A stretch of DNA of 64,000 bases from Pelagomonas calceolata (lineage: Eukaryota > Sar > Pelagophyceae > Pelagomonadales > Pelagomonadaceae), in assembly GCA_918797485.1 (NCBI GenBank), contig CAKKNE010000004.1:1178001-1242000 (forward strand). The letters are read 5' to 3'. The notes under the pieces were generated by a model. It was not told the origin of the DNA and made no database searches. It was given only the letters and a program-made list of their open reading frames with translations. Position 1 is the stretch's first letter, and each line of letters starts with the position of its first letter. This document shows positions 2,795 through 56,327 of this stretch, piece by piece. Both the position numbers and the translations under genes were made by a program.

Positions 2795-2816
2795 CTAGTA
2801 TCTACAGGACGGTTAG
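2795..2816 (+). repeat. GCTAG palindromic intergenic motif, decayed copy
   Basis: The sequence CTAGTATCTACAGGACGGTTAG differs from the motif consensus by a few changes and one missing T. It overlaps the stop codon of the EMC8/9 gene and lies about 270 bp upstream of the SDR start codon at 2523. Confidence 0.5.
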
Positions 2817-3364
2817 GCAGCGAGGAACTCGGCGACCGCCGGGTTCCGCCAGTCCCTAGCTGCATCATCAAAGTGGACGTCGAAATCAACCACCGACACG
2901 CCCGCGTCGGCCGCCTCGACAAACGCCGACGACGGCGCGCAGGCCACGGCTCGCGGTTGGTCGCAATTCGATCCGCCGTAGCACGTCAGCGCGTGGTCCG
3001 ACGGGTCCGCGAGGCGCCTATTGCTGATCTGGAGCACAACGACGGGCGCGCCGCCGGATTGGGCCGCGAGCGCCGCCGCGACCGAGGGCGCGTGCTTCGG
3101 CGGCGCCTCGTCCCGCAGATGGGCGGCCGCGCAGTAGTAGCCGCAGACGTAGAGATTCTGTGCCGCGGCGTGCGCCGCCGCGTGCGCGCTTGCCGTTTCG
3201 AGCGCGCCGCCCAAGGACCCGTTGTGGAACCCCGGCACGACATCTGTAATCTCGACGCCGTCGCCCCGCCGCGCACCAAGACAAAAACCGTCGACCGCGC
3301 AGTGCGGGTACTGCTGCGCGTGGAGCAGCATCTTCGTGTACGCCAATTCATTGACCGAGGCCAT
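2813..3364 (-). CDS. EMC8: ER membrane protein complex subunit 8/9
   Basis: The product of 183 residues belongs to the EMC8/EMC9 (UPF0172, MPN-like) family, a cytosolic subunit of the ER membrane complex that inserts tail-anchored and multipass proteins. The N-terminus MASVNELAYTKMLLHAQQYP followed by HCAVDGFCLG matches the family's opening, which is why the ATG at 3364 is preferred over an in-frame upstream codon at 3466 that would add 34 Arg-rich residues. Later conserved pieces are VVPGFHN, the QNLYVCGYYCA strand and a C-terminal FDVHFDDAARDWRNP helix. As expected for EMC8/9, no JAMM zinc ligands are evident. It is divergent from the mitochondrial-type gene at 3642 with a palindromic motif between them. 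Confidence 0.85.
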   Translation of the reverse strand: MASVNELAYTKMLLHAQQYPHCAVDGFCLGARRGDGVEITDVVPGFHNGSLGGALETASAHAAAHAAAQNLYVCGYYCAAAHLRDEAPPKHAPSVAAALAAQSGGAPVVVLQISNRRLADPSDHALTCYGGSNCDQPRAVACAPSSAFVEAADAGVSVVDFDVHFDDAARDWRNPAVAEFLAA

Positions 3365-3545
3365 GGTCCGCTGTCGCGCGCGTCTGCTGCTGTCGAGCCG
3401 AGCCGGCGGCAAGCTATGCCGCCGCAAAAATTGATCGAGCCGGCGGTGAAGCTGCCGCCGCAGCAAAAATTGATCGAATGGCGCTATCGGTCTCTCGACT
3501 ACAAGCGCGGGCCGCCGTAAGCCACAAAGTGTCGACCGCGAGCGG

Positions 3546-3570
3546 GCTAGTGCCTTTACAGGCCGCTAGC
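3546..3570 (+). repeat. GCTAG palindromic intergenic motif
   Basis: Left arm GCTAGTGCCTTTAC, right arm GGCCGCTAGC. The copy sits between divergent genes, 72 bp upstream of the ATG at 3642 and about 180 bp upstream of the EMC8/9 ATG. Confidence 0.8.
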
Positions 3571-3641
3571 TCGCAGACTTGTACAATTGTCCATCATTGA
3601 GCAGTGCGCAGCGCATCACCGACTGCGCCGACAGGCGTAAC

Positions 3642-4517: not shown

Positions 4518-4554
4518 CGACTCAAAGGGAATTTACGCGTCCTCCTAGTACAAT

Positions 4555-5814: not shown

Positions 5815-6322
5815 CCGCCGTGCTGCGTCCGCACTGTTGCCACACGACAGGAGCGGTCTGGTTCGCGATCGGGATCAGCGAGCTGCGTCCGCCACGACCA
5901 GAGCAGGCCTCAGAGCGAGCGGCACCGGTATGGTACCTTATACCTTACCTTACCGCTATAGGATATTGACAATTTTATAGACAGTCGTCGCCTAGGGATC
6001 AATATAGGATATTGATCGATAGACCGGAGGAGTCGGGGTAGCACCGGCCACTAGGTCTTCTCGTAAGAAGCGGCACGCGCCCGCCGCCGATGAATCGACA
6101 ACACGTGGTCTCTTCCCCCCAGGGGCTCCGCCCACTAGTCCTAGCACCGTAACATCATCGAGCAGGTAATGAGCCCGGGACGCGTCGGGCGTCGCCGCGG
6201 GTCGCGGGCTCGTTCGGACCGGGGAGAGCGGTCTGCGCCTCGCGAGTCGCCGACGCATTCTTGCCAGTGGCACCGGGGGAAAGACGCCCGCGGCATACGG
6301 GATAAACTTTCAACCCAAGTTA
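5815..6322. other. Intergenic spacer between two minus-strand genes
   Basis: No gene is seen. The segment holds the LDH2-family promoter side and the kinase 3' side. It contains CTATAGGATATTGA at about 5956 echoed as ATATAGGATATTGA at about 6002. The stretch at about 6070-6096 resembles, inverted, one at 33679-33704 (about 26 bp, three mismatches). A fragment near 5950 vaguely recalls the GCTAG motif but is too degenerate to call. Confidence 0.5.
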
Positions 6323-7741: not shown

Positions 7742-8319
7742 CTTTTTTGGCCGGTCCCGCGGTTGCTGAGCGGCCGCGTTGGCCGCTCCGCTGTTTCTGA
7801 GCCGCCGCGTTGGCAGCCGCGCGCGGTCGGCGCCGCCCGCGTCCGCTTGTCACGTGGCTCGGCTCGCCGCGGGCGTTTCACCACCGCTGGCTGGCTCTGA
7901 GAGGAGTTCGGCTGTCTCTCTTCGACGCGCTCTGCTCAAAGACGATCCGCTGTGCCAAAGGAGGCAAAAGTCGGCCGATTTGCAAGCTGCGAAACCCGAA
8001 GCAAAAAATGCTCGCTAGTGTCTTACAACCGCTAGCAACTTTGCTCCGGAATTTGCGCAGCCTGGCGCAGCCTGGCGCAAGAGCAACCCATCCGGCGCTC
8101 GATCGCTGTAATATCATCCCTATTTTTAGTGCCGTGCCAGCGATTCGACAGGTTGGGCACCGCTCCAGGCACAGTGCCTCTCCCTATGCACTCTCACTAC
8201 TAAAAGAGTGCTTCTCATCCGTTGCATTGGCAGCTTACCGGCAGCCGCCGACGCAGAACTCAGCCGCTGCATGACGTCGTAGACCAGTCTTGGCTGCCAC
8301 ACTGTATACCCACAAAACC
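7742..8319. other. Divergent promoter region between kinase and GDPD genes
   Basis: No coding potential is convincing. The region contains a GCTAG motif copy (8014..8036), a repeated GCCGCGTTGGC block (about 7770 and 7805) and a tandem GCGCAGCCTG pair near 8056. It presumably holds both promoters. Confidence 0.5.
8014..8036 (+). repeat. GCTAG palindromic intergenic motif
   Basis: Arms GCTAGTGTCTTAC and CCGCTAGC. It lies between divergent genes, 283 bp upstream of the GDPD ATG and 272 bp upstream of the kinase ATG. Confidence 0.8.
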
Positions 8320-10437: not shown

Positions 10438-10945
10438 CCTTTGCTCTGCGTGTGGCCCGTGCCGCGAGAGAACTAATGCTCTCGCACGCCCGTCGCAGCA
10501 CGATCACAGCCGCAACAATGAAATGCTCGAAGGGCCTGTTTCGTTGCTACCACACGCTTTGAGGCGCGGGCAGCGCAAGTGGCAGCGCGAGCGGAGACTC
10601 TGGAACGCGTGCCGTCGCGGCGAGCACGTATAACTGATTCACGCCTGAGCTATGGCCAAAAAACCGGGGCTTTGCTAGTGTCTTACAGCCGCTAGCTAGC
10701 CTCCACGCGCCAGCAGGCCTCACAGCCGTGGCGTGCTCAAGCACCGCGCATTCGAGCTGATTTGCGCACTCGAGCGCGTATTGGACAAGATCCTGCAGCG
10801 CTCTACTTTGTGTGAGTACTCACCATCATTTGGAGCTGCGTGGTGAGCTGCGTGGTGAGTTTGAGACTCGTCGTGGACAGACCCAAGACCAAGCCAACCG
10901 GCGGGCAGAGACCATAAAACCAACCATCGATCCCTGCTTACAACA
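10438..10945. other. Divergent promoter region, sulfotransferase / plastid protein
   Basis: No gene seen. It carries a GCTAG motif (10674..10696) near its middle and short tandem repeats GAGCTGCGTGGT at about 10840-10860 just upstream of the plus-strand gene. Confidence 0.5.
10674..10696 (+). repeat. GCTAG palindromic intergenic motif
   Basis: Arms GCTAGTGTCTTAC and GCCGCTAGC. It is nearly centred between divergent start codons: 249 bp to the ATG at 10946 and 236 bp to the ATG at 10437. Confidence 0.85.
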
Positions 10946-11502: not shown

Positions 11503-11529
11503 CCGGCAACCCGGAGAGGTTTGCTCGCC

Positions 11530-11607
11530 GAGAGAGAGAGAGAGCCACTTATTGAACCCACCCCCAGCCGCGAGAGAGAGAGAGCCACTTATTGAACCCA
11601 CCCCCAG
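11530..11607 (+). repeat. Two tandem copies of a GA-tract repeat
   Basis: Each copy has a (GA)n tract followed by CCACTTATTGAACCCACCCC and CAG. Copies end at about 11567 and 11607. A third copy lies inverted at 28243-28282. Confidence 0.85.
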
Positions 11608-11609
11608 GT

Positions 11610-11635
11610 AGTACGGACCCCGAACGCTTCGCCAC
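11610..11635 (+). repeat. 26-bp dispersed repeat, copy 1
   Basis: The block starts AGTACGGACCCCGAA and ends CGCTTCGCCAC. An identical 26-bp block is at 50855-50880, 39 kb away; sequences outside the block differ. Confidence 0.8.
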
Positions 11636-12569
11636 TGTGTCTATTGGGATTGGCGATAGGGTGTTGTTTCACCCTGCCCCCCGAGAACCCAGACACGAAT
11701 GGTGTGAGGTTTCGCTCCGAACAGAGGCCGGCCGGTCGCAAGCGACGTGCCTTGGCCTGTTCGATGGGCTATCCGTCCGCCCGGTCCAAGCTACTTTGCC
11801 GACACCACACAGCAGTTCCTGGACCCAAGCGCGCGGCCGGCGTGCAATGCCGACACGCCACAGGCCCGCGGGGAACTTTGTAGCGGCGACCGACGGGGTG
11901 AACGAATCGCGGACACCGTCGGGCACCGCGCCGGGAGCGCGCGCCGAACCGGTCAAGCCCTGTCCCGCTTTTACCCTCTCGGGTGGTCCCGCGCCATCAC
12001 GTGTCGGGGAGTTTGCAAGGAAGTTGCGGATGCACAGTCAGACTTTTCCGGCCCCGCCAAGGCAATTTTGTCTCTGAGGACCGGGCGCCTGGGCGGAGCA
12101 GGTAATCCTCTGACGCGCCGCGGCCCGATTTCCATCTCCGTGTCGGCGGCCCCGACGTGCAATGGAAGTGGAATTCCAGTGGTCCGCTCCGATGATGCCC
12201 CGCGCATCAACGGTTCAGAACGCACAAGACCGCAAGGGAACGACGGCCGACCAATCCTCCGCCGAGCCCTGGGCGGCCCCCAGGAGCTACGGAGGGACCT
12301 CAGGCGCGCCCGCCGCCGCGGCCGTTAACGTGGGCCAGCCGTCACGCGCCTTTGTTATAGCGGGTTGCGTCCGCTTTGTTTTGCTGGTACGGGAGTACCG
12401 CTTTTGTTTTTCAAATTTGGCGGTTCTCGTGCTTGTGGCCGCGCGCGTCAAAATGGGCAGCGTTTTTTGGGCGCGCCGCGTGCCGTAGTGTGTATAGAGG
12501 CTGCAGGCAGTGTGCGGTGTGTGTGGGGCGCGCGCGCGGACGCTGGTACTTTGTCGAGGCTATCCGCTG

Positions 12570-12592
12570 GCTAGCACCCGTAAGACACTAGC
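12570..12592 (-). repeat. GCTAG palindromic intergenic motif
   Basis: Inverted orientation: GCTAGCACCC then GTAAGACACTAGC. It is 187 bp upstream of the PDI start codon. Confidence 0.8.
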
Positions 12593-12779: not shown

Positions 12780-14432
12780 ATGCTGCGCCGCGCGCTGCTC
12801 GCCGCCGCCGCGGCAACAGCAACACAAACGACGCCGACGCCGGACATTATTGACTTAGACGCCAACATCACAAACACGCTAGCAACCCATGAGGTCGCCG
12901 TCGTCAACTTCTACGCGCCCTGGTGCGCGCACTGCATCCGATTTGAAGGAGAGTACGCATTAGCCGCGTCCAAAGTACCACTAGTGACATGGGCGAGGCT
13001 CGATTGTGCCCTACACAGAGAAACATCAGAAGCTCATAACGTCGAGGGCTACCCCCACGTCAAGTTGTATCGTCATGGGCGTTTCGCGATGGACTACGAG
13101 GGCCCGAACGAGGCCCACCAGCTCGCGCGGTGGGTTCAAAGGCGCTCCACGCCACACGTTGATGAGTTGAAGGATTGGTCTGACGCACGACCGTTCCTCG
13201 CGTCGCTGTTTGGTGACGACAACAGCAAGGGCGTGCGCGGGTTGGTTGTGGGCGTCTTCGCGTCGAATGCCTCAGAAACAGCTCAGACCTTCGCACGCGT
13301 CGCGAGTGGCGACGACGGCGACGATCTGAGTTTTGCGCTCACAACAAAACCCGAGCTCGTGGCGCAAGCCCTGCGCGAGCGGGACCACACCATCGCTCTA
13401 GACATGAACGAGGACCGCGTCCACGTTTTGTCATCTACGGGCGATGACGTCAAGACTATGACAGTGGACTCGTCAACGACTCCTAGAACGATCGCCGCCT
13501 TCGTCAACAGTGCGCTCGAGCCGGCCGTGACGCGCTTCGACTCGTCGACGGCGGCGCATTTGTTTCATGGTATGCGCGGGCCGCGCGTCCATTCATTACT
13601 ATTCGTCGACGAGGCCTCGAAGAAAGGTGAAGGCGTCGCGGACGCGTTCGCGGCCTTGGCAGCGGACGAACGCTTGAAAGTGAGGCACGTCATTGTTCCA
13701 TCCTCGGAGGCTCGCGTGCTGAAGCATTTCGACCTGAACTCGGGCTTCGACCTGCCGACGGTCGTCCTGTGCGACCTGCGCGGTCTAGCTCCCTCGGTCG
13801 GCGACGACGAAGTCGTGCTCGACGATTCTAGAGATGCCCATGTCCATGCGAAGAAGGCCTTCGCTTACAGATTGCGGGACTGGCACGCGTCAAATAGAGT
13901 GGATCGGGCCACGCTCCAGTCCTTTTACGCCGCGTTCTTCGATGGCAACCTTACGACGCCGTTCCTTCGGTCACAACCCATCGTCGGGTCCTTGGACGAC
14001 GCACCAATGAGAGCGCGAGAAGCATCTGAAGAAGGTCGCGTCGTCACGCTCGTGGGCAAGACCTGGGACGTCGTCGTCGGGGCGGCGCGGAGGGACGACG
14101 ACGACGACCGCGATTTTCTCGTGCTCTTCCACGCGCCCTGGTGCGGCCACTGTATTCAATTAATGCCCGTCTGGGCCCAGCTCGCCGAGCTGTATCGGCG
14201 CGTGCATTCCATTGTGGTGGCGTCGGTGGACGCGACGCAGAACGAGGTTGCTTCTGTGGACATCGACCAGTTCCCGTCCATTTATCTGTTTGACGCTCGA
14301 GGAAGTCCACCGGTATTATATGAGGGCGCGCTCGACCTGGACGCTCTTTCCCGGTTCCTGAAGGCCAGAGGGACGCGGGCCTTCGACGTGGACGGGCTCC
14401 GGGGCGGCGGCGAGCTGCGGGACGAGCTCTAA
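12780..14432 (+). CDS. Protein disulfide isomerase with two thioredoxin domains
   Basis: The product has 550 residues. A signal peptide (MLRRALLAAAAATATQ) precedes a first thioredoxin domain with FYAPWCAHCIRF (about residues 41-52) and a second, C-terminal one with FHAPWCGHCIQLMPVW (about 448-463), in an a-b-b'-a' layout like classical PDI. The first active site is CAHC, the second the standard CGHC. Conserved cis-prolines appear as VEGYPHVKLY and IDQFPSIYLF. The protein ends LRDEL, a KDEL-type ER-retrieval signal. It would oxidise and isomerise disulfides of secretory proteins in the ER lumen. A GCTAG motif lies 187 bp upstream of the ATG. Confidence 0.9.
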   Translation: MLRRALLAAAAATATQTTPTPDIIDLDANITNTLATHEVAVVNFYAPWCAHCIRFEGEYALAASKVPLVTWARLDCALHRETSEAHNVEGYPHVKLYRHGRFAMDYEGPNEAHQLARWVQRRSTPHVDELKDWSDARPFLASLFGDDNSKGVRGLVVGVFASNASETAQTFARVASGDDGDDLSFALTTKPELVAQALRERDHTIALDMNEDRVHVLSSTGDDVKTMTVDSSTTPRTIAAFVNSALEPAVTRFDSSTAAHLFHGMRGPRVHSLLFVDEASKKGEGVADAFAALAADERLKVRHVIVPSSEARVLKHFDLNSGFDLPTVVLCDLRGLAPSVGDDEVVLDDSRDAHVHAKKAFAYRLRDWHASNRVDRATLQSFYAAFFDGNLTTPFLRSQPIVGSLDDAPMRAREASEEGRVVTLVGKTWDVVVGAARRDDDDDRDFLVLFHAPWCGHCIQLMPVWAQLAELYRRVHSIVVASVDATQNEVASVDIDQFPSIYLFDARGSPPVLYEGALDLDALSRFLKARGTRAFDVDGLRGGGELRDEL

Positions 14433-14588
14433 ATTTTGGGGTTTGTGTCGTCTCCTACTAGAAGTAGAAACGACGGCGCGCGGCGCGTCCGAATCTAAGT
14501 GGCGTAGCATATCGACGACGTCGCCGAGGCAATCGGCGCAGACTCGAACGGAGCTCCGACCGCCGGGCACAAAGGAAATCCCGCGTGG

Positions 14589-14611
14589 GCTAGCGGCCTG
14601 TAAGACACTCC
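14589..14611 (-). repeat. GCTAG palindromic intergenic motif, one arm decayed
   Basis: GCTAGCGGCC then TGTAAGACACTCCGC; the outer arm has lost TAGC. It is 157 bp downstream of the PDI stop, not near a start codon. Confidence 0.7.
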
Positions 14612-15791
14612 GCGCTCGGAGGGCGGGAAAAGAATTCTACTAGACAACTCCCGAGTTTATGTTCGTTTCCTTCCGTTTGTTGGTGGTAGAGTCCATCTAG
14701 GCCGCCAGGACGCCGACGAGGCACATTAGGTGCTTCGTTAAAAGCCTCGCGATTCAGGGAATCCGCGACCTCACTTTTTTACGAAAACGACAAGAATTCC
14801 TAAACCTGCGAGTGTCAGCGACGCCACTACCCAAATGGACCATAACGCCATTGTTCTATTCACGATCGACCCACTTGCCCGTTCTCCGCGGACGACGGTG
14901 CGGAGACGGAGCACCAGAAAGGCCCCAGACCCGTGAGTTGTGAAATAAATTTGCGTTTCAGGCGCTTGGGTTACGGGATGGGCCAGATAACCGGCCTGAA
15001 CATGTACTACATTGGATTTCTTGATCCGAAGGCTCGGCCGGGCAACGCCAACTCCCGAGCCCACATCTTCTTAATTTGGGCACCACATCTGGACCTGCGA
15101 CCATCAGCCCGTGTACCATCACCATGGACCATGACGCGATCATTTGTTCCATGATCGACCGACTTGCGCGAGGTCCAGATCAAGATGTTCACGTCCCGAG
15201 CGTGGGCAGCCAAAAGTACCCTTCTTATAATGTAGATGTCATATACTTGTAATTGACTATCGCTGGGGTAGTATGGGATCCAACGAGACCGCTACGGCGA
15301 CTACTGGGGGGCCTCGGGTAATTGACGTTTTTGACGGGAACGGGGCGCCATCGGGTCCAAATTATTTACTTTTTTCGGATGCAGGTCGGCTCCTGGAGGT
15401 CTCTCGGGGTAGGTCTGGGGTCGGGTAGTCGCCTGGACCGCATACGCCGGCGCTTGGGGCCCCCGATAGTTCTGGAACCAATTGCCAAGCTATTCATGGT
15501 TTTGTGGCGTGCAATGAAGAGAGAATTGGTCGATTATGCCCCGAACCCGGGCGCATGCGGCGTAGCCGATTGAGCACATCTACTAACATCCCTATGCGAT
15601 CCCGGGGAGACCTCGGGACCACGGATTGACAGGATTCCACAGGCGCGGCCGCCATGGACCATGGGTGGCGCCGTCGCCGCGACTTAAACAAAACGGTTTT
15701 GGACCCCCAGTACGTGTCCTATTGATCTCTTTGGACCATTAGCTAACTGAACGATACTCAAACAACTGCATGCGCGTTCCGAGTTGTGCTT

Positions 15792-15816
15792 GCTAGTGTC
15801 TTTACAAGCCGCTAGC
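15792..15816 (+). repeat. GCTAG palindromic intergenic motif
   Basis: Arms GCTAGTGTCTTTAC and GCCGCTAGC; 234 bp upstream of the NAA40 start codon. Confidence 0.8.
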
Positions 15817-16050
15817 TTTCACCGCGCCCAGCTCTTTTGCGCCTTGGATTGCTCGAATCCGTGCCACTTCGGCACGAGCGCTGGTGAAACGCACCCTCCG
15901 CAAACTCTAGAAGCCGCACCGAGCCGCGGCATCGCTGATTTGACCGCTGCGCGCCGAGCTCAGCCGTGCCATTCAAATTAGCAGTTTCAAATTACCGCGC
16001 ACGATACCACAACGCCGGCCACCTGTATTGCGCACGACGCCGCACCAAAA

Positions 16051-16722
16051 ATGGGCAAGCAGTCCAAGTCAAACGCCAAGAAGGAGCAGCGCAAACTCAC
16101 CCAAAGGCGCCGCGCGGCGCTCGAGGAGCGCCTGCGCGCGCCGCGGGCGCTGCAGGACTGCGGCGCCGGCTTCCTCCAGCCCGCGCTGCTGCGCGTCGGC
16201 GACCTGGAGATCAGCTTTGAACGGACCCTGTCGAAGCCGGACCTCGCGGCCTGTTTTGATATCCTGGAAGATAACATGAAGGAGCAGTACGAGGTGAACC
16301 CGTGGGGCTGGGATCCCAAAATGAAGCGGGCCGAGCTCGCCAACGACGAGGCGCGCTTCGTGTTGGTCCGGGATAATGATAGGGTGGTCGCGTTCGCGCA
16401 CTTCCGGTTCGAATTAGACGACGACGACGCGCCCGAGCGCGCGGTGCTCTACGTGCGGGAGCTGCAGGTCGCGGAGGCGCGTCGGGGATCTGGTATCGGG
16501 CGGCGCGTCATGGGCCTGCTCCAGCTCGTCGGGGCCAAACTCGAGCTCGACTGCGTGCTCCTGACGGTCTTCGAGTCCAACAAGGGCGCGTTGGCCTTCT
16601 ACGAGGCGAAGCTCAAGTACGGTCTCGATAGGGACGACCCGTCGCTCTTCGGGCGGGAGGAGTGCTACCGGCTCCTTTCCAAATCTCTGCCCAAACCCAA
16701 ACCCCTCGGGGAGGCCAACTAA
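16051..16722 (+). CDS. NAA40: N-alpha-acetyltransferase 40 (NatD), histone H4/H2A N-terminal acetyltransferase
   Basis: A 223-residue GNAT enzyme that acetylates the alpha-amino group of Ser1 on histones H4 and H2A. The N-terminus MGKQSKSNAKKEQRK is basic like the human enzyme's and starts with Met-Gly. Family marks include NMKEQYEVNPWGWDPKMKR (matching the NatD Trp-Gly-Trp insertion), FVLVRDNDRVVAFAHFRF, LYVRELQVAEA, and the acetyl-CoA loop RRGSGIGRRVMG (Q/RxxGxG/A), then LLTVFESNKGALAFYEAKLK. Length and order fit the family. A MITE is inserted 24 bp after the stop codon, probably in the 3' UTR. Confidence 0.92.
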   Translation: MGKQSKSNAKKEQRKLTQRRRAALEERLRAPRALQDCGAGFLQPALLRVGDLEISFERTLSKPDLAACFDILEDNMKEQYEVNPWGWDPKMKRAELANDEARFVLVRDNDRVVAFAHFRFELDDDDAPERAVLYVRELQVAEARRGSGIGRRVMGLLQLVGAKLELDCVLLTVFESNKGALAFYEAKLKYGLDRDDPSLFGREECYRLLSKSLPKPKPLGEAN

Positions 16723-16746
16723 TTTAACACTCGGGGCGACGGCGTA

Positions 16747-17152
16747 CTAGGGTGCGATTTACGTGGAAAAAACGCGTAAGTTACACGTAAAGCACCGCTA
16801 CAGGAGATCCCACGTAAAAAACGGCGTAAAAAAGGAGGTATCCAAAAGTCCTTCCAGGGCTCTTCCCGAAGCCGGCGCTAGCGGCCCTCTAAGACTCTAG
16901 CTCGCGATCAGCAGCTCGCAGAGTGTGGCTGCCCCTAACGTTGTCAGAGCCGAGCCAATTGCTAGTTGCATGCTGTTGCGAGCAAGGTGTGCACTCTAGC
17001 CTAGTAGGTGTGCGCTTATGCGCCGTGCTCGTGCTTTAGGCGCTCTGGCGCGTGTGTGCGGGTTTTATAAATAAATGCACGCGTAAATTACGGCGTAAAT
17101 GACGCTGGACCGTTTCTCACGTAAAGAACGCCGTGCGTAAATCGCACCCTAG
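16747..17152. mobile_element. MITE with 17-bp terminal inverted repeats, 8-bp target duplication
   Basis: The 406-bp element begins CTAGGGTGCGATTTACG and ends with its exact reverse complement. Direct flanks ACGGCGTA at 16739-16746 and 17153-17160 match perfectly. If the outermost C/G pair is placed in the flank instead, the end reads TAGGGTG and the duplication is 10 bp. Subterminal CGTAAA/TTTACG repeats recur at both ends. No coding capacity. An 8-bp duplication and a TAGGG-type end suggest hAT kinship (inference). Both duplications are intact, so the insertion is fairly young. Confidence 0.9.
16877..16901 (-). repeat. GCTAG palindromic motif inside the MITE
   Basis: GCTAGCGGCCC then TCTAAGACTCTAGC. 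It is the only copy located within a recognisable mobile element. Confidence 0.65.
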
Positions 17153-17253
17153 ACGGCGTACGAGGGCGGGGGCGGGGCGGGCGTTCGGTCACGCAGCCCC
17201 GCGGCGGTCGTGGGACTCGTGGCGGCTAGGCGCCTAGCTCTGAGCAAAGCAAT

Positions 17254-17541
17254 TTAAACAATGGCGCACGACGCCGGGGGCTCCTCGCGTAGGACCTGCT
17301 CCTTCGAGTGCAGCGCCGCGTCCGGCGACCGGTACCGCTCGTGGATCGCGTCGATCGCGTCCAGCAGCTCCCGGGGCAGCGCCTCGAGCTTGAACGCCCT
17401 GATCGCTTCCTCGCACTGCTGGACCGTCGTCGTGCCCGTGACGACGACGGCGTTGTAGGGGCGGTCGCGGCACCAGGCCAGCGCAAGAGAGGGGAGGCCC
17501 GGTCGTATCTCCGCGTCCCGGCGTGTGGAGGCGGTTTCACT
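17254..17541 (-). pseudogene. C-terminal part of an aldo/keto reductase
   Basis: The minus-strand frame from an upstream stop to TAA at 17254-17256 reads LPSLALAWCRDRPYNAVVVT, then GTTTVQQCEEAIRAFKLE and ELLDAIDAIHERYRSPD, the end of an aldo/keto reductase barrel. The reductase gene at 21069-22312 stops having homology exactly at the same ALAWCR point. The two share a 17-bp direct repeat, CGGCACCAGGCCAGCGC, at 17468-17484 and 21142-21158. This fragment is best read as the displaced 3' part of that gene, separated by the element at 17485-21141. The codons upstream of ALAWC do not match the main gene, so a relic of a paralogue is the alternative. Confidence 0.7.
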
Positions 17542-19461
17542 TCATGCAAACGCGTCGTTTCCAGGAATGATGGACGTGGGTGGTTTCTTTTTTGATTTCG
17601 GGCGCGTTTTGACTTGTCGGAGACGTTTTCTCGAAGCTACTGGTGAAACGTCGAGAACGGCGCCCGAGCGCGGCCGCTGCGGCGCGCGGCGCCGCGGCGG
17701 ACGCCAGCCGACGCCTGCACGCCGTCGCCGCGCTCCAGGACGCCTAGGGCAGCCGCGCGGGCCTCGAGCGGTGCCGAGGCGGCCGCGGACAGGAGCGGTC
17801 GGCGTCGTGGCGGTGCGCAGCGCTCGGATGCCGTCGCGCGGCAGTGAACGGTCCACCCCTACGCCATCGGCGCGACGCGTGCGACGTAGCACCACGCCCC
17901 AGGCTGTGCTGCTGCAGAGGCATGCAGTCCCGTGCGGCGCTACTGGTCAAACAGAGCGGTCGCTGGCATCGATGCGACGTCCTGCCCGCACCGCTTCGGT
18001 TGAGTGGTGATCGATGCGGCTCGGCTGGCTCGATTGCTCTCTGCTGCTGTCTGCCTCAAATGTTGATGCGAGAGCCGCAACATTTCGTTTCTCTCGATTC
18101 AGTCTAAAACTCGACCAACGCACGCGGCATGGGCCGCATCGATGCGCGCTGAGTCTAAAACGCGCCGCCGTCGCGCGGAGCCTCAGTTGCACACCACTCT
18201 TGGCTGGCACTGCTGCAGCCCTGAGCGCCGCGGGCCTGCGGGGACACAAGTGACGCGCGCGGTCGAGAAATGTTCGCAGCGCAGCCTATCGCTGAACGTC
18301 TGCGCGGGCGGACATCTTTGGCCGCCGCGGGGGGCGCGGCGCGTCGTCCACGCGCCAAGAGTCAGGCGACCCTCGCCGTTGAAAGCTCTGGAGGCCGCGC
18401 AAGGCTAGACGAGTGGTGGCGGTGCGGTAAAATGCCATTGGGAGCTAGTCATGGTCGCGACGCGGCTCGGTCGGCGCGCTCTGACGAGACGCGAGCGCGT
18501 CGAGGGGCATCGAGAACGTTGGGAGGATATGGCAGCACGGCGAGCTCTGATTGTGGCCCGACACCGTCCGGAGACGATCGGTCGGACATCTCGGACGCAT
18601 GGGACCTGTGGGACCACCACATCCAGTCGAGTTGACGAGTTGACGAGACCATCATCGTCTCCCCTCGGATTTGGCGTGCGCTGTGGTTCAGATAGATTGA
18701 GATGATGCCGCAGAACCACTGTGCGCTGAATTGACGGTGATCTTTATATTGGCCGTTGTAGACATGCAACGCCGCGAAGGGGGTGTGCGGTGGACGCTGG
18801 TGCGAGTGCGGGCCTATAGGAGGCGTCTCATGTCGGTGAGGGTTGTGGTTGGTCTTCTGGTCTCGAGACGCCGCGTCGGGGCCTTGGGCGACTCGACCGT
18901 CGGACTCGTGTCTCGGGTGCCTAGCAGGATGTGTTGGGTGGGGTGTTGTGTTGCGGCATTTTGTTTCTGGGACACCTCGGTGCCGGAAGCGCATCGTGGC
19001 CAAGGGTTTCGGCGCCGTCGAGGCGCGGTCTTGCTGGCGTCGGGGACGCCGCGGGCTTCTGTTACATTTGTTGGGGAACGACGGCGGTCAGCGGCGGGCG
19101 CGAGGCATGATTTCTCGCGAGCGGTCCGTCGTGTTGCGCGGCGCGACGTCGTCGACGCGTTTTGTGGCGAGGGGTGGTGATGCGGCGGGCGGGGAGGTGT
19201 GATTCCATCGCGTCGAGGCCGGCGCGACGCTTCGCTGACGACGACAGGTCTGATTTAGTTGTTGTAACGTGTTTTTGCTTGGTCTCGGAGTGCGTGAGCG
19301 GGGTCTCGGAGTGCATGAAAGCATGAAGGGGGGCGGCCCGGGGGACGCGTGCCCAGAGGGCGGGCTCAGACGTCCCGGGGGCACAGACAGCGCTGTTTCA
19401 GAGCCGTGCGGAGCCGCGCGAAAATCACGAGCGCGCGCGCCCAAGGGCCTCTTTTAAGCGT

Positions 19462-21068: not shown

Positions 21069-22312
21069 CTAGGAAACGAGTCGCCTCGACGGCGTAACGG
21101 CGCCGGAACGCCGCGGGACGGCGAGATACGACGCGGCCTCACGGCACCAGGCCAGCGCGAGCTCGGCGGGCGCCAGGCCCCACGCCTCGGCGAGTTTGAT
21201 GTATTCCCGCGTCGCCGCCGCGCCGCGCGGCGAGCGGTACCGCGTCTGGAATTTGGGCTTGAAGTTGTGCCGCGCGAGCTCGAGGGGCCGGTCGCCGGCG
21301 TACTTTGCGTTCTGATACTTGCCCGTCAGCGCGCCGCCGCCGAGCGCGCCGTAGGGCATGCCCACGACGCCCAGGTGGTGGCACGCTTCCGCTGTTGAAG
21401 TTTCATACGTCCGGTTGTTGAAATTGAAGTCGTTCTGCACGCTCACCGGCCGGGGCACGCCCAACCGGTCGCACGCCAAACAGAACATCGTCAACCCATA
21501 CGCCGTCTCGTTCGACAGGCCCCAGTGTCGTATGAGCTTCGCGTCGAACAAGCCCTGGACCGCCCGGACTTGTGCCTCGAAGTCGGCCTCGGCACCTGTG
21601 TAGAAATCAAAATTTTACGGCGCGTTCGTGCTGAATCATCGCGTCGTCCTCGACGCCATCGACGCGACCCCTGCTCGATGGCGTGGCGGTGTCGGTTCCT
21701 CACCGCTCGACGAAACCAGCGCGGCCACGTCATCGCCGAGAAGTGCACCCGACACACTGGTTGATTTCCACACAGCTCGGCACCCGTCGACGTCCGCGCG
21801 GCGTCGTACCGTCCATCCTTCCAGTTGGCCCAGCCAAAGGCCTCGCCGCCCATGCGCGACGGGAAGTGCAGCATGTACAGATCAATATAGTCGCACTGCA
21901 GCCTTGATAGGGACGCCTCGCAGGACGCCCGCAATCGATCGGCGTCGAAGGCGTGCTTCTTCCACTTTCCCGGCTTCCCTACGGTACCGCCCGTGCCCAG
22001 GGGGTTGCACTTCGTCGCGAAGTACAGGTCCTCGCGCTTCACGGTGCCGTCTCCGATTCTACGGGCGAGCCAGTTGCCGATCCACGTCTCCGTCGTCTTG
22101 CCGTAGTTGAAGGCCACGGGGTACATCTCTGCCGTATCAAAAAAGTTCACGCCGTGCTCCACGAAACAGTCCAGTTGCGCGTGGGCCTCTTCTTCGCTGC
22201 CGTTGAAGGAGCCCCAGGTCATGGAGCCGGCGCAGAGCTCCGAGACGACCATGTCCGAGCGGCCGTACTTGACCTTCCGTAACGCGTCGCGGCGCGCGAG
22301 GGGCCGCGGCAT
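21069..22312 (-). CDS. Aldo/keto reductase, interrupted 3' end; one introner intron
   Basis: Exons 21784..22312 and 21069..21595 join in frame (phase 1) to 351 residues. The barrel is of the bacterial Tas/YajO-like type: SELCAGSMTWG, the catalytic-Asp/Tyr region FFDTAEMYPV, the Lys in LYFATKCNP, the His in DYIDLYMLHFP, then RHWGLSNET and FNFNNR. Homology ends at ELALAWCR (about 21142). The remaining codons to the stop at 21069-21071 are encoded by the end of the inserted element, so the cofactor-binding C-terminus is missing here and appears at 17254-17467. The gene is probably non-functional or makes a truncated enzyme, unless the element is spliced out. It is divergent from the gene at 22800 with a GCTAG motif between them. 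Confidence 0.8.
21596..21775. mobile_element. Introner element 3 (180 bp) in the aldo/keto reductase gene
   Basis: Ends are CTGTGTAGAAATCAA and TTGATTTCCACACAG (one mismatch). A perfect 8-bp duplication, CTCGGCAC, lies at 21588-21595 and 21776-21783. The predicted coding-strand intron is 21596..21783, from GTGCCGAG (the duplication) to ACACAG (the element end); splicing restores TGAEADFEA. It is the longest copy, so the best template for the family. Confidence 0.95.
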
Positions 22313-22799
22313 GGCTCGCGTGGCGACGCGGCGCGGGGCGAGGCGCTGCGTTGTTAGGATGGATGCAGACCCGAAACCTCGCGGCTCGGGCGCTGCTCAC
22401 GATTGGTCACTCCCGGAGCCAGCGACCTCAATCTTGCAGTAATGATGCTGCTTGCTTGGCAGCTCTTCCAAGGCTGAGGCATCCCTAGTGCCTTACAGGC
22501 CGCTAGCTTTACCCAGCCTCCCGACTGATCAGGCGCCACGGCCAGGGCGTCCGGAGCCCCCCAGGACGAGTTGGCCGCGCCTGCGCAAGCCGCCAACAAA
22601 TAGATAAAAAATTAGGCATGGGATTGACGCGGGCTGCCTCCTCCCGCACGCGAAAGCAGTCGTCGCGATGCGTGGGCGCGCGACGGTCCATCGCCAGCGG
22701 GCAGCCGTGCGTACCACACCCTAACGTCTAGCTCGTTGCCCTCGCTGCCCGCTGGGGACATCCTCGACGCAGGGCCGCCGGACGGGTGGCGAGAGCGCC
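22313..22799. other. Divergent promoter region, aldo/keto reductase / sulfotransferase-like
   Basis: No gene seen. A GCTAG motif at 22485-22507 lies between the two start codons. No repeats other than this were noticed. Confidence 0.5.
22485..22507 (+). repeat. GCTAG palindromic intergenic motif
   Basis: CTAGTGCCTTACA then GGCCGCTAGC; 172 bp upstream of the reductase ATG (minus) and 292 bp upstream of the ATG at 22800. Confidence 0.8.
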
Positions 22800-25701: not shown

Positions 25702-25880
25702 CGATGGCGTTTCTCCGTGTACGCAGCTTCGCCGGCGCACGAGTTAGTCTAGCGTTCGTGACCGCTTAAGTACTCTCTCCTGGCGTCAGGGGGCAGCCAT
25801 TTTCTTCCGCGCCAGGCTGCCCACGCTGGCATCCAGTCCCTCTCTCTTTTTGGGGGTCCGGCACGGCCGACAAGGTTGCC

Positions 25881-25899
25881 CAGCGTGTAAGACACTAGC
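25881..25899 (-). repeat. GCTAG palindromic motif, half copy
   Basis: CAGCGTGTAAGACACTAGC: the TGTAAGACACTAGC arm is perfect, the other arm is lost. It lies 180 bp upstream of the glycosyltransferase ATG at 25701. Confidence 0.65.
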
Positions 25900-28073: not shown

Positions 28074-28210
28074 CCGGTTTGGTTGGTTGCAGCGGCGACG
28101 CTCGATTTTTTGTTTCACGTATCGGTGCGGCGCAGCTAAACTCCCTTGGCGTCGACCTTGTGGCACGCTCCGCCGTTTATGGGCGGCCCCAGAGTTTTGT
28201 TTTTGGATCC

Positions 28211-28230
28211 CTAGTGTCTTACGAGCTAGC
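28211..28230 (+). repeat. GCTAG palindromic motif, shortened
   Basis: CTAGTGTCTTACGAGCTAGC: intact arms with the central GGCC reduced. It is 137 bp upstream of the coiled-coil gene ATG at 28073. Confidence 0.75.
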
Positions 28231-28242
28231 AAAATCGAACTA

Positions 28243-28282
28243 CCTGGGGGTGGGTTCAATAAGTGGCTCTCTCTCTCTCTCG
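28243..28282 (-). repeat. GA-tract repeat, third copy
   Basis: Reverse complement of the repeats at 11530-11607: CTGGGGGTGGGTTCAATAAG then TGGCTCTCTC and a CT tract. The match extends through CCCCCAGGTA, shared with the second copy. Confidence 0.85.
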
Positions 28283-30061: not shown

Positions 30062-30085
30062 GCTAGCGTCTAGTAACACACTACC
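30062..30085 (-). repeat. GCTAG palindromic motif, decayed
   Basis: GCTAGCG then TCTAGTAACACACTACC; roughly 19 of 24 positions match the inverted consensus. It lies between divergent starts at 29857 and 30330. Confidence 0.45.
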
Positions 30086-32111: not shown

Positions 32112-32447
32112 CGTTCGCGGCGGCTCGTGGCGGAGGAGGCGCTCTCTCTTATATTGGTTTCGTCCCGAGAGTACGGATCTCTTTAAACAGGTTATTATTA
32201 CCCATGCTGCGTGCGGCGCGAGGGCCGGAATTACGCGCGGCGCCGCGGCGAGACGTTCGTATGAAACAAAGCGTGTTTGCAAAAAAGACCGGGGTTTGCA
32301 GCTTGCTCTAGTATCTTACATGCCGCTAGCCGTGCGCGCGCGGCGCTCGCCCGGCCGCTTGCGCGTGCCTCAGGTGCCAATTCACGGTGTGACGCAGCAC
32401 CACACTCAGCCTTGCCTCTTGGCTGCAGCTCGCCGACGCAGCACCAT
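32112..32447. other. Divergent promoter region, sulfotransferase / cyclin L
   Basis: No gene seen. A GCTAG motif (32308-32330) is placed 117 bp before the cyclin L ATG. Confidence 0.5.
32308..32330 (+). repeat. GCTAG palindromic intergenic motif
   Basis: CTAGTATCTTACA then TGCCGCTAGC; 117 bp upstream of cyclin L and 196 bp upstream of the sulfotransferase ATG. Confidence 0.8.
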
Positions 32448-33584: not shown

Positions 33585-34224
33585 GTCGTCTTTTTAAGTT
33601 GGTGTTGGTCCCGTCTCCTGGGCGTGGAGGTGGGCCATCGCGCCGAGCAGACTTTTGCCCATTTCTCGGGGGTTGGTGCGATTCGTCGGCGGCGGGGGCG
33701 TGCCGCGTTTTTCATCATGCAGCATTTCTCGGTCGATCCGGTACCCGGCGGCGAGGTTCTTGGGGTGTGTACGCCAGTCAAATTCACTATGTTAGTAACA
33801 TGAAACTATGTACTATCGGGGTGTCAATGCTGCCTGCCCCTCATCGTGGGCTCGAGGAGACGAAGAGTGCCATTCGCATGCTGGTTCAGGCACGCGTCAC
33901 AGAAGCCGTAGTAGTCGTACGTGTCCCGCAGGTGGTCGACGACGTCACTTTTCAGCGCGGGTGCAAACCGCGGCGCGCGGGCGCCGCGCGGCCGGCGCCT
34001 GCGCCAGTTCTCAGTGGATAAGAAACTATATGAGGATTTCTGTCCGGGGCGGGGGAGGGGGGCGCCGCGTACCGATGCTCGGATACCGCCCTCCCGCGAC
34101 CGGTAACGACGATCTATGAGAACGCGCGGGCGGTCATTGGCACTGCAGTAAACCGCGGAGGACCGAGCAGGCAGCCGTCCATACGCCTCCTTGGGGAATT
34201 GAAAGGTCCGGAAAGAAAGTCTTT

Positions 34225-34255
34225 GCTAGTATCTTACCTGAAGTACAGGCCGTAG
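34225..34255 (+). repeat. GCTAG palindromic motif with central insertion
   Basis: GCTAGTATCTTAC, then an extra CTGAAGTA, then CAGGCCGTAG. No start codon of a supported gene is close. Confidence 0.5.
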
Positions 34256-37656: not shown

Positions 37657-44399
<6,743 letters not shown>

Positions 44400-45191
44400 T
44401 GATTGATTGGCTACGTACCGGTGTGCAAGGCGACGACGTCACACACGCGGCAGAGGATTTGGAAAGTATCCCACGGCTCATGATAAAACTGTTTGAGCGC
44501 TGCACCCCCGTGTAAATATACATATCCAGCCTAGTCCTCCAGAAGCGAGGCTTCGCAGACTCGTCTCGCTCGAGTCTCGCTCTCTAGTCTCGCTCCGGCC
44601 GCGGTGAGCGCCGCCCAGAAATCTGGCCAGGGCGGTAGGCCGAGGCGCCCGCGGGGGGACGTCTATGTGTCGAGCCCGGAGGTTTAGTAGTAATTTGTCA
44701 AGCTGCTAGTGTCTCACGACCGCTAGCTTGTGGCCAAACCCAGGCCGACAAACTTGGCCGCCGACAAACGCACCCAACGCTCACAAAAGTAAATCCCGCG
44801 TCCCAGACCCCCTTAAAAAATCTGCGCCGATCACATACAACGCCCACTCGCCGAGAAAATCCGCCGCGCGCTCGAAGACGTTAAATTCACCCTGGAACAT
44901 GCCAGCAACCGAAGCTCGTGGCACGCAACGGGCGCCGGCGGCGCCACCAAGCCGCGCGCGGTTTGCGGCGCGCCGGCACGCGAGGCCGTGCGAACGACGG
45001 CGGCCGAAAACGCGCACAACACACAAGCCGGCCGCACGACGTTCTCGCGCGCAGGCACACCTAATCGGTCCGGGCTCCTTTTGAGCTCTCATCCGCACCA
45101 CCGCCACCACCAAAGTGCCGCCGCGGCGTCCGCGCCACAACCTCGCGCGCGAAACCGTCTCTCACGCAGACCAAAACCAAAACCAAGACCA
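44400..45191. other. Spacer after the ubiquitin-headed gene
   Basis: No gene seen. It contains a GCTAG motif (44705-44727) and a CTCGCTCGAGTCTCGCTCTC run near 44565. The long overlapping frames at 44730-45190 are leader sequence of the next gene. Confidence 0.5.
44705..44727 (+). repeat. GCTAG palindromic intergenic motif
   Basis: GCTAGTGTCTCAC then GACCGCTAGC; 464 bp upstream of the ATG at 45192 and 305 bp after the preceding stop. Confidence 0.8.
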
Positions 45192-45973
45192 ATGACGACG
45201 CGCGCGGCGCTCCTCGCCCTCGCGCTCGCCGCGCATGGCGACGCGTGCTTCCGCGCGGACACCGGCGGCTGCGCGGACGCGGGTTATGTTGATTGGCAGT
45301 CGTCGCCCGAGGCCTGCCAGGTCGCGTGCCTCTCCATGCCCGGCTGCGAGAGCTTCGAGTGGCGCGGCGGCACGCTCGGTCTGTGCGACCTCTGCACGGC
45401 GCCGACGCCCGGCGCGCCCAAGGCCGACGCGGTCTGGGGCCCGCGGTCCTGCGACGCGGCGGACGAGCCGGGGCCCGTCGCCGCGGCCTCGGAAGCCGTC
45501 GCCGCGGCTCATGGCGTCTGCGCCGACCCGGACCCCGAGCGGGACATGCGGGACCGCCTCGAGGCGGCCGCGCGCCTCTCGGCGGTCGTGAAGCTGTTAG
45601 TGAAGGATGAGCTGAGCAAAGCCGACTTCGCCGCGGCGGCTTCCCAGGCCGCGGCGCTACTAGAGCGGGCGGACTGCGCGCCGACGCCCTGCAACGGCGG
45701 CGCCATCCTCTGGTCGACGCTCGAGATGCTCCTCCTCGCGCTTGACGGAGACGCCGCGAGGGCCTTCCCCCACGACGTCGACCTCTATCTGACTTCGCGC
45801 CGAAGGACTGGTACGAGGCCACGAACGTGTGCGCGGCCGAAGGCAAGGTCCTCTGTGGCGTCGAGCAGCCGTGCATAAACCGGGGGTGCTCCTACAACAG
45901 ACACTACCAGTGGACGGGCCAGGAGTGCCAGGCCGGCGACGCGGGCCTGCCGGCTGCGTGCGCGTCAGCGTGA
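45192..45973 (+). CDS. Secreted Cys-rich protein with PAN/Apple-like domain; frame change near 45790
   Basis: The ATG at 45192 gives signal peptide MTTRAALLALALAAHGDA. Residues about 20-90 have PAN/Apple spacing (YVDWQSSPEACQVACLSMPG then CESFEWRGGTLGLCDLC). A helical linker follows. Around 45788-45795 the clear protein character moves to another frame, which reads DFAPKDWYEATNVCAAEGKV then LCGVEQPCINRGCSYNRHY and QWTGQEC to the stop at 45971-45973. No GT-AG intron of sensible length fits, so a one-base indel (real or a sequencing error) is likelier. It is probably an extracellular lectin-like or adhesive protein. Confidence 0.6.
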
Positions 45974-46286
45974 TTCCCTTCCTACGATTCCCTTCCCTTG
46001 ATTGTAACTCCCCTTTGATTGGCTCTCGAGAGCAGGGACGACGTCGTCGCGACATTGCGATTTGTGGTTCGGAGCGTGATCCAATCGGGCGCCGGATCGG
46101 ATTAGCTAGCGGTCTGTAAGGCACTAGCACACAAGCAGGCGGAGGCACTAGCACACGAGAAATCGGTCGGTCCAACACGTGGTCCGTAATCGTCATGTCG
46201 TGCGGGCACCGGCGGCCAAAATCTGAAAGCTCGAGCCAGAAACAAGAACAAGACATAGGCAGGCGCAGGCATCAAGGCAGCCCGGG
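45974..46286. other. Promoter region of the RelA/SpoT-LRR gene
   Basis: It contains a GCTAG motif (46105-46128). Just after it, GGCACTAGCACAC is repeated at about 46121 and 46142, a partial duplication of the motif arm. Confidence 0.5.
46105..46128 (-). repeat. GCTAG palindromic intergenic motif
   Basis: GCTAGCGGTC then TGTAAGGCACTAGC; 158 bp upstream of the ATG at 46287. Confidence 0.8.
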
Positions 46287-50620: not shown

Positions 50621-50636
50621 CTCCTTAATTATATTT

Positions 50637-50700: not shown

Positions 50701-50854
50701 TAGTATCTAACCTAGATCACCTAGAGATCTCCAGCTAGCCGAGGTCCTCCATAAATAATACCACTTAGTGATTCATTTACAAGCCCCTTCGAAGGATGGC
50801 TTGTAGTCCGACGAGAGACTCGGAGATAGACGCTTATGGTGCCCCGCCCCAGCG

Positions 50855-50880
50855 AGTACGGACCCCGAACGCTTCGCCAC
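50855..50880 (+). repeat. 26-bp dispersed repeat, copy 2
   Basis: Identical to 11610-11635. Confidence 0.8.
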
Positions 50881-50971: not shown

Positions 50972-50994
50972 GCTAGCGGCCTGTAAGACACTAG
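50972..50994 (-). repeat. GCTAG palindromic intergenic motif
   Basis: GCTAGCGGCC then TGTAAGACACTAG, a perfect inverted consensus copy; 282 bp upstream of the ATG at 51277. Confidence 0.9.
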
Positions 50995-51160
50995 GGATGC
51001 CTAGCAAGCCGGGGCTGAGAGAGAGCCTGAGCCTGGAGCACACGCGCGTCCGTACCCACACGCTCTGTTCGCTGTCTTATATGCTAAGTCCTAAGCACAC
51101 ACGCAGATTCAGCCACGCACTGGTCGCTTCGTCGCGTGTCACACATCATATTCTTCTCCG

Positions 51161-51236
51161 GTGCAGCCAGAGACACGACGGGGCTGCCCAACAAACCAGT
51201 GCAGCCAGAGACACGGCGGGGCTGCCCAACAATCTT
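51161..51236 (+). repeat. 38-bp tandem pair
   Basis: Two units of GTGCAGCCAGAGACACGRCG followed by GGGCTGCCCAACAA, ending 40 bp before the start codon at 51277, so probably in the 5' leader. Confidence 0.85.
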
Positions 51237-51276
51237 GTCAGCATGGACATAAGCTCTCACTAGTGCACCCGCGCGC

Positions 51277-52158: not shown

Positions 52159-52329
52159 GGCGCGTTGTGTGAGTTTACTACCGTGACGGCAGAGGGTCTG
52201 GCAAGGGGACTTAGGCAGGGGGTGGGACGCAGCGCTGGGCGCGCGCGTCGCGGGGGAAGTTGGCGCGCTGAGCCGGCCGACGGCCGCTCAGAGGCGCGGA
52301 GGACGTCTCCGACGCGCTCGCGCGCGCGC

Positions 52330-54878: not shown

Positions 54879-55538
54879 GGCGGCGTCGGGGCAGCCCTTG
54901 TTCTGTTTTGGCTTCTGGTCTCGTGCCTGCGCGGCGCGGCGTCGCGCGGGCCCGCGCGCGGCGGCGCAGCGCGGCGGGGCGGGGGCGGCGGGGTCGGGGG
55001 GGCGCTACCTCGGGCAGTTCTTTTGCGTGGCGTCTGCTCCTTTTTGGCGCCAATGTGCGTAACGTCGGAGCTCCGAGAATGGAGCCGTTGCGGGGGAATG
55101 GATTCTTTAGGCCCGGCGCGCGCGGAGACTCGGGGGCGCGCCTACGGAAGAGACGCGTGCCGCCCGAGGGACTCCGCGGGGCCCTCGCGCGCGCGGCCGC
55201 GCGGCCACAAAAGGAGACGCGACGAACAGGCGGGCGCCGGCCTATCAGACAGGCGATCCTTCCGCTGCCCGGCCGTTGCTGGGGAGGGCTCCGGCGGCCG
55301 CCCACCAAGCATGTCGGTGAGCCCGCCGCCGCTGCCAATATACGCCCCGTGCCAATCCCTCGGCACGCGCAGCCAAGCGAAAGCACGCAAATCAGCGTCG
55401 ACCGTCGCTGCGCCACCGCCACGAAAACCGCCGCGCCGCGGCGCCACCCAAAAGCCCGCCGCACCCAACACAACTGACAAACCTGCCGAGTCGCGCGCAC
55501 CCGCAGCATACGAATAAATCACCGCGCAGGCCAACAAA
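54879..55538. other. Divergent promoter region, BCCT / Jupiter-motif gene
   Basis: No gene seen and, unusually for this window, no GCTAG motif recognised. The sequence is GC-rich with no clear repeats. Confidence 0.5.
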
Positions 55539-56114
55539 ATGAGCGCCCACACGCGCAAGCTCGAGGAGCGCCGCGCCAGAGCGCTCGCGCGTAGAGCCGA
55601 GCTCGGCGCCGAGAACCGGGCTCCCGAGATGAACGCGCCCTGGGCCCTCGGCGAGAGCGAGGCGCCGGCCAAGAGGCAGCCGGTCGCCGCGCCGGTAGCG
55701 CCGGACGCGCCGCCGACGCCCCGCGACCTGGCGAGGGCGAACGCGTCGCGCAACGCCGGCGACAAGGACAGCCGCGCCAACTTCTTCACGGGCGGCGGTG
55801 CGCAAGCTCCCGCGTCGACGGGCAAGCGCCAGTTCGGTCTGAGTTCGCAGACGTCTTCCGATTTGATTGGCGGGCCGTCGTCTCCGGAGCGAAGACCCGC
55901 ACGGTCGTTAGGTGCCACTCTAGACGCGCGGGCCCAGTACGCCATCCGCGCGAACGCCGCGCGCGGCGCGAAGCGGGGCCCGGTCTCGGGCGCGGCCTCC
56001 TACGGAGGGGCGAACGGCAACGGCGGCCAGAACGTGGGCAACTCGCTCGGCGACCGCAACTCCAGTCGTGTGTTGGCGCCGCCGGGCGGCTTCTCGTCCG
56101 TGACCTTCGGCTAG
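55539..56114 (+). CDS. Small disordered protein with Jupiter/HN1-type C-terminal motif
   Basis: A 191-residue protein that is mostly Ala/Gly/Ser/Pro and basic. The N-terminus MSAHTRKLEERRARALARRA is a charged helix. The C-terminus GDRNSSRVLAPPGGFSSVTF matches the repeated NSSRVLxPPGGxSS motif of the Jupiter microtubule-associated (JPT1/HN1) family; only the C-terminal motif is seen, not the second copy of animal proteins. A microtubule-associated role is inferred from that motif alone. Confidence 0.6.
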   Translation: MSAHTRKLEERRARALARRAELGAENRAPEMNAPWALGESEAPAKRQPVAAPVAPDAPPTPRDLARANASRNAGDKDSRANFFTGGGAQAPASTGKRQFGLSSQTSSDLIGGPSSPERRPARSLGATLDARAQYAIRANAARGAKRGPVSGAASYGGANGNGGQNVGNSLGDRNSSRVLAPPGGFSSVTFG

Positions 56115-56303
56115 GTCTCTCGACTCCGTGCTGGCCTCGCCGCTCGACCGCGCCCTCCCACGTTAGACCCCCCCCACGTAAGGCCCTCGTTTCGCTCGAC
56201 CTCTCGTGTTCTTGCGTGGGCAACTATGGAGCCGAGATATGCACCAATTTCCGTCGCACCGGAGTCTAGCACCGGAGAGCGATTACGTCGCGCCGGCGAT
56301 TCT

Positions 56304-56327
56304 GCTAGCGTTGTAAAGACATACTAG
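56304..56327 (-). repeat. GCTAG palindromic intergenic motif
   Basis: GCTAGCG then TTGTAAAGACATACTAG; 75 bp upstream of the ATG at 56403. Confidence 0.75.

Follow-up and report, generated by a model that had tools for sequence, protein, structure and literature searches.

A near-palindromic word of 20-25 bp recurs upstream of most genes in a stretch of 64,000 nucleotides from the pelagophyte alga Pelagomonas calceolata (GenBank assembly GCA_918797485.1, contig CAKKNE010000004.1, positions 1,178,001 to 1,242,000), which is called the window below and whose first letter is position 1. We read this word as a general promoter element, the predicted binding site of a sequence-specific nuclear protein that would mark most promoters of a GC-rich alga with one site per promoter, and we give this reading, which is drawn from sequence, a probability of about two in three. 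The observations behind it are the recurrence of the word, its non-coding location, its position about 70-300 bp upstream of start codons, the service of divergent gene pairs by one copy, and the pattern of its conservation; its direction relative to the genes is established less firmly.

The original prediction listed 18 occurrences in the window of an imperfect palindrome of about 24 bp. A fuzzy consensus allowing up to 7 edits is too loose to part copies from chance, and a gapped weight matrix was used instead, with 11 + 7 fixed positions and a spacer of 2-8 bases; it was trained on 13 of the 18 listed places, for which its scores are circular, and 17 further copies on other contigs stand outside the training set. 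The background, estimated from 20 third-order Markov shuffles, was 0.5 matches per 64 kb at a score of at least 16 bits. At this threshold the window contains 17 places, namely 16 of the 18 listed ones and a new one at 58617, and at 26 bits or more it contains 12 copies, as against an average of 0.00 in 50 shuffles. The two remaining listed places, at 2795 (9.1 bits) and 34225 (10.0 bits), do not rise above chance by score and are weak or decayed. The match at 58617 (16.7 bits) was considered as a copy and excluded, being inside a coding model and at a score where about 0.5 matches per 64 kb are expected by chance. The full set consists therefore of 35 copies (18 in the window and 17 on contigs), and the strong set of 33, without 2794 and 34225.

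The first description is amended in one respect: the element has a polarity and is not simply palindromic. Its oriented consensus is [GC]CTAGTGTCTTACAGGCCGCTAGC, with arms GCTAGTG and, read from the opposite end, GCTAGCG, and with TCTTAC on one side only; the asymmetry is kept, a T standing opposite G in 30 of the 33 strong copies. These copies are 20-25 bp long, 27 of them 23-25 bp. They show no variation at left positions 4, 5 and 10 or at right positions 3, 4 and 6, and most at left positions 1, 7, 8, 9 and 11; the unevenness of variation over positions is significant (p about 1e-7). The spacer ranges from 2 to 7 bases and has 6 bases in 15 of the 33. All 33 strings are distinct. Outside the element the information is low, with a maximum of about 0.5 bit in the immediately adjoining bases. 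The 18 fixed positions hold 29.2 bits, an estimate that the score cut-off inflates, to which 5.7 bits are added for the 15 six-base spacers and from which 2.1 are taken for uncertainty in spacer length, giving about 33 bits.

Placement relative to genes departs from chance. A copy lies within 310 bp of 20 of the 28 curated starts, compared with 7.2 +/- 2.1 under random non-coding placement (maximum 15 in 5000 trials), so that the enrichment upstream of starts over other non-coding DNA, which had been proposed as a check, is present. Conversely, 14 of the 18 window copies are followed by a curated start at a distance of no more than 310 bp (7.2 expected, p = 0.001), in agreement with the earlier estimate of about 14 within 300 bp of an ATG. 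The 41 motif-to-ATG distances have a median of 193 bp; 40 of them fall in 71-303 and the outlier is 464. The claim that copies avoid coding sequence also holds: no midpoint of the 18 window copies is in a curated coding span, and none of the 33 strong copies is located inside coding segments of the automatic gene model (58617 having been excluded beforehand), where coding segments make up 68-69% of the DNA. With the same model, the strong copies of the window are distributed as 6 divergent, 9 tandem, 1 convergent and 0 coding, and those of the contigs as 5 divergent, 6 tandem, 6 at a contig edge and 0 coding. Of the 35 copies, 11 are flanked by divergent starts, 19 were assigned to one gene only and 5 to none. 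The curated start list includes eight divergent pairs, and a copy is found between the starts in six of them (none in 54609/55539 and 58969/59526); the count of divergent intergenic copies in the window is six, as against five in the original prediction. In the window, neighbouring strong copies are at least 1085 bp apart, with at most one per intergenic region. A search among the 8-mers of 45 promoters found no second word comparable to the element, the best runners-up occurring in 7 to 9 of the 45 promoters as against 0.4-0.8 expected from first-order shuffles.

The 18 window copies are the following (strand refers to the copy; scores in bits).
2794..2817, + strand: weak or decayed copy, score 9.1, 270 bp upstream of the SDR gene start 2523 (-).
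3546..3570, + strand: copy between divergent starts 3364 (-) and 3642 (+), score 28.0.
8014..8036, + strand: copy between divergent starts 7741 (-, kinase) and 8320 (+, GDPD), score 31.3; Pfam.
10674..10696, + strand: copy between divergent starts 10437 (-, sulfotransferase) and 10946 (+), score 31.3; Pfam.
12570..12592, - strand: copy 187 bp upstream of the thioredoxin-domain gene start 12780 (+), score 29.1; Pfam.
14589..14612, - strand: copy with one damaged arm after the thioredoxin-domain gene, score 21.7; no gene found close downstream by inspection of open reading frames and Rfam.
15792..15816, + strand: copy 234 bp upstream of the GNAT gene start 16051 (+), minority orientation, score 30.3.
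16877..16901, - strand: copy after the GNAT gene, no assigned start, score 27.2.
22484..22507, + strand: copy between divergent starts 22312 (-, aldo/keto reductase) and 22800 (+), score 27.6; Pfam.
25879..25899, - strand: copy 177 bp upstream of the glycosyltransferase-domain gene start 25701 (-), minority orientation, score 20.7; Pfam.
28210..28230, + strand: copy 136 bp upstream of gene start 28073 (-), score 26.7.
30062..30085, - strand: copy between divergent starts 29857 (-, CoaE/HAD) and 30330 (+, G8/CEMIP), score 22.7; Pfam.
32307..32330, + strand: copy between divergent starts 32111 (-) and 32448 (+, cyclin), score 27.2; Pfam.
34225..34250, + strand: decayed copy with left half intact and extra bases inside, no gene assigned, score 10.0.
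44705..44727, + strand: copy upstream of the open reading frame 44817-45875 (+), 464 bp from its first in-frame ATG, minority orientation, score 27.5.
46105..46128, - strand: copy 158 bp upstream of the LRR gene start 46287 (+), score 29.0; Pfam.
50972..50995, - strand: copy 281 bp upstream of gene start 51277 (+), score 29.9.
56304..56328, - strand: diverged copy 74 bp upstream of gene start 56403 (+), score 16.2.

Partial extra copies adjoin two of these, at 46131-46152 (beside 46105) and at 12542-12564 (beside 12570), with scores of 13.4 and 12.2 that are within chance. Downstream of copy 16877, the segment 17270-17600 (-) was read by eye as a broken piece of a second aldo/keto reductase gene. 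Rfam gave no match in the window at its gathering score, one sub-threshold match in 14400-19400 being taken as chance, and no tRNA was found in the window.

Orientation looks mixed on the + strand, as first described, and appears biased relative to the gene; such a bias would be expected of core promoter elements, though not of every factor site. Among the copies with a single gene, 15 of 19 point in the same direction (p = 0.019), the gene reading GCTAGCGG..GTAAGACACTAGC towards its ATG, and the TCTTAC half tends to be proximal to the gene. The four exceptions are 15792, 25879, 44705 and L020:10088, the last on a contig where the other side runs off the end. With automatic gene models the count is 12 of 15, including two copies whose nearest model is over 1.2 kb off.

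The element is also found outside the window. A pattern scan of a prokaryote collection returned four places, in metagenome-assembled genomes (MAGs) titled Spirochaeta (two), proteobacterium and Synechococcus, whose run and sample names we take to be marine. Nine contigs (L012 and L016-L023) in these four MAGs (G001-G004) hold the 17 contig copies scoring at least 16 bits, 11 identified by pattern and 6 by the matrix alone; five of them are on L017, in 8.3 kb, and the upstream placement recurs. Scans allowing three mismatches were unspecific, the reversed control giving 9 matches versus 8 and 16 versus 3; the copies on L021, L022 and L023, which came from such scans, were kept because the matrix scored them at 21-29. 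L012 was treated as an algal-bacterial chimera (G001:C13 looks chimeric), because the bacterial genes MgtE and MurB follow from about 4.1 kb, and the automatic gene-model count took in only its first 3 kb. Pattern scans of IMG/VR for the element gave no match.

A bacterial origin of the contig copies was rejected on three grounds: the exact pattern is absent from all 477 other genomes scanned in the family or order to which two of the MAGs belong (1 of 400 and 1 of 79, each time the seed genome itself), its reversed control gives 0 in the four MAGs, and four contigs (L016, L017, L022 and L023) share other repeats with the window. The comparison of contigs and window returned short repeats only, with no shared gene order and no orthologous region. 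The contig genes include a photolyase (L023) and a multidomain acetyl-CoA carboxylase (L022) of a type known from eukaryotes. The nine contigs appear to be a small algal contamination of four MAGs filed as prokaryotic; no histone family turned up when the four MAGs were searched, a result that lends eukaryotic content no support and is compatible at best with contamination on a small scale. The earlier proposal of a shared cis element, be it a promoter, an insulator or the site of a dimeric factor, is supported by the upstream enrichment, by the recurrence in nine contigs, chosen as these were for the word, by the lack of target duplications of at least 4 bases, by the distinctness of the strings and by the orientation bias.

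Several points weigh against a general promoter element. Eight of the 28 curated starts have no copy within 310 bp, and the starts were curated from codon bias and ATGs with the motif positions already known. Five copies have no assigned gene (14589, 16877, 34225, and the L018 and L019 copies near contig ends), and 16877 is scored as convergent in the automatic model. The direction rule is post hoc, having been tested on the data that suggested it, and the bias is 6 to 3 in the window alone, the contigs contributing 9 to 1, with a single contig supplying five of these. Because presence of the word was the criterion for choosing the contigs, copy density in them is uninformative. Moreover, the element carries about 33 bits, whereas 12.8 would be enough to specify 18 sites in 64 kb, and scores of intermediate size are not over-represented, copies being either near the consensus or absent; a plain factor site need not show such a surplus together with a lack of intermediates, and spacers that vary from 2 to 7 bases are not what one would expect of a rigid dimer. 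The surplus would mean that two proteins read the element, or that selection is unusually tight, or that the element spreads by copying.

Spread by copying is the substance of the alternative already raised with the original prediction: a very small mobile repeat, non-autonomous and bounded by short inverted ends, that either favours open promoter DNA or is tolerated nowhere else. Its short inverted ends would be GCTAG/CTAGC; the information far above need and the missing intermediates fit it, introner-like introns with inverted ends are present in the same sequence, and extra flank bases are common to 22477-22507 and 50972-51002, and to L016:9064, L017:2198 and L018:7906 with 50972. We nevertheless regard it as unlikely. 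Matching flanks of at least 4 bases occur in 0 of 33 copies, with 1 versus 0.6 expected at k = 3 and 5 versus 2.9 at k = 2, although a target duplication that was always CTAG could not be told from the arms, because CTAG belongs to both. No two copies are identical, changes are unevenly spread over positions, and orientation tends to follow the gene; the differing strings, the lack of duplications and the low information of the flanks speak above all against copying that is recent. By sequence alone a promoter element, an insulator and the site of a general factor look the same. Another account that was weighed is a chromatin boundary, insulator or replication-origin site between genes, which a structural protein would bind in place of the transcription machinery. 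CTCF has a high-information bipartite site of the boundary type, and here too strong copies stand between gene models, including divergent ones, at most once per intergenic region in the window. What makes this account improbable is that copies keep to 5' ends rather than to non-coding DNA at large and tend to take a direction from the gene; convergent DNA is scarce, with 1 strong copy in the 3.5% of the window and 0 in the 3.0% of the contigs that it occupies, too little to gauge depletion.

An RNA element of 5' leaders, a hairpin with a GCUAGUG/CGCUAGC stem, is hardly credible. The arms can be paired with one G-U and the loop length varies, as a hairpin would allow; against it, no compensatory change is seen among the 33 copies, whose 28 single-sided changes leave pairing intact in only 3 cases, the sixth pair would be C-A in 30 of 33 on the strand that most genes would transcribe, and divergent genes would read opposite strands of one copy. 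A spliced-leader or splice-site reading, suggested by GTAAG on the sense strand, was dropped; the orientation exceptions and the copies shared by divergent genes do not fit it.

If the element is a general promoter element, as we favour, a protein probably endowed with two DNA-contacting parts and some tolerance of spacing would bind GCTAGTGTCTTAC on one side and CGCTAGC on the other. The bound factor would keep the region free of nucleosomes and might help to assemble the RNA polymerase II machinery, the TCTTAC half lying towards the favoured gene; at divergent pairs, a single bound site could open the promoter for both genes. The high-specificity sites of the yeast general regulatory factors Reb1, Abf1 and Rap1, and bipartite sites like that of REST, occur in many promoters and help to keep them open; the algal element would resemble them in this behaviour.

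In behaviour the nearest analogue is the vertebrate CGCG element TCTCGCGAGA of TATA-less promoters, which has ten bases of a different sequence and marks one group of promoters (PMC6192621), whereas the algal element is longer, polar, elastic in its spacer and near 20 of 28 starts; neither TCTCGCGAGA nor even CGCG occurs in any of the 35 copies. In lineage the nearest are the INR, FPR and DPEP of Phytophthora infestans, stramenopile promoter words with a forward orientation bias. INR and FPR are AT-rich and near the transcription start site (TSS), and an estimated 13% of promoters have INR+FPR; DPEP, a pattern of 7 letters, is downstream of the TSS, and unnamed over-represented words without orientation bias lie 75-300 nt upstream of the TSS (PMC3599244). 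An INR-like YTCAWTYY, in our own wording of INR, is absent from both strands of all 35 copies. The introners of Aureococcus and relatives are likewise short and dispersed, some with inverted ends; they sit inside genes as introns, with a length peak near 210 bp in Pelagomonas (PMC9860276, PMC9481584), in contrast to an element of 20-25 bp that is upstream of genes and lacks target duplications of at least 4 bases. No description of the element was found in searches of an open-access library; the single match to two of its 12-mers, a paper on yeast diphthamide, was taken as chance.

The window itself has 65.6% G+C and 29 curated genes, about one per 2.2 kb, in a compact eukaryotic gene set identified by codon-bias models and Pfam (protein kinase, cyclin, G8/CEMIP, thioredoxin-domain protein, ubiquitin domains, BCCT transporter and others). 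For the Pelagomonas genome the published report gives 63.6% G+C, 32.4 Mb and 16,667 genes, with the intron-length peak ascribed to introners, and for the Aureococcus genome 67.4% G+C (PMC9481584). Two introns were deduced in the window from split Pfam matches, in the aldo/keto reductase gene (about 21584-21786, -) and in the SDR gene (about 2111-2242, -); both are introner-like and share a sequence with inverted ends GTGTGGAAATCAA and TTGATTTCCACAC, which recurs at L022:2363-2405, L023:6252-6303 and L023:7296-7368.

Other repeats accompany these. Another dispersed repeat, at most about 137 bp long, is present at 6065-6154 and 33679-33721 of the window and at L017:299-435, L017:2050-2172 and L023:5285-5321, and in three contig cases it shortly precedes a copy of the element. 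A non-coding GA-rich repeat (GAGAGAGCCACTTATTGAACCCACCCCCAG and variants) occurs at 11529-11635, 28236-28282 and 50812-50880, once directly beside copy 28210. A tandem array at 37659-38694 has a 153-bp unit in 6.9 copies with 96% matches, and its first part is open in the open reading frame 36460-38259.

Read as a promoter element, it falls in a known class, in which its length, elasticity and prevalence are unusual. There is an even chance, in our judgement, that it is specific to the lineage: a polar, bipartite promoter element marking the majority of genes in a pelagophyte alga, whose spacer is elastic and whose information is about 2.5 times what finding its sites demands. It would then amount to a dominant promoter code that differs from the known ones of oomycetes, yeast and animals, and two cooperating proteins might read it. 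Beyond a few model groups little is known of how promoters are built, and one word before most genes of an oceanic picoalga would give access to its transcription starts, to the general promoter factor of its lineage and to the annotation of its genes; the surplus of information over the need of recognition is a testable puzzle on how such a site is kept or spread.
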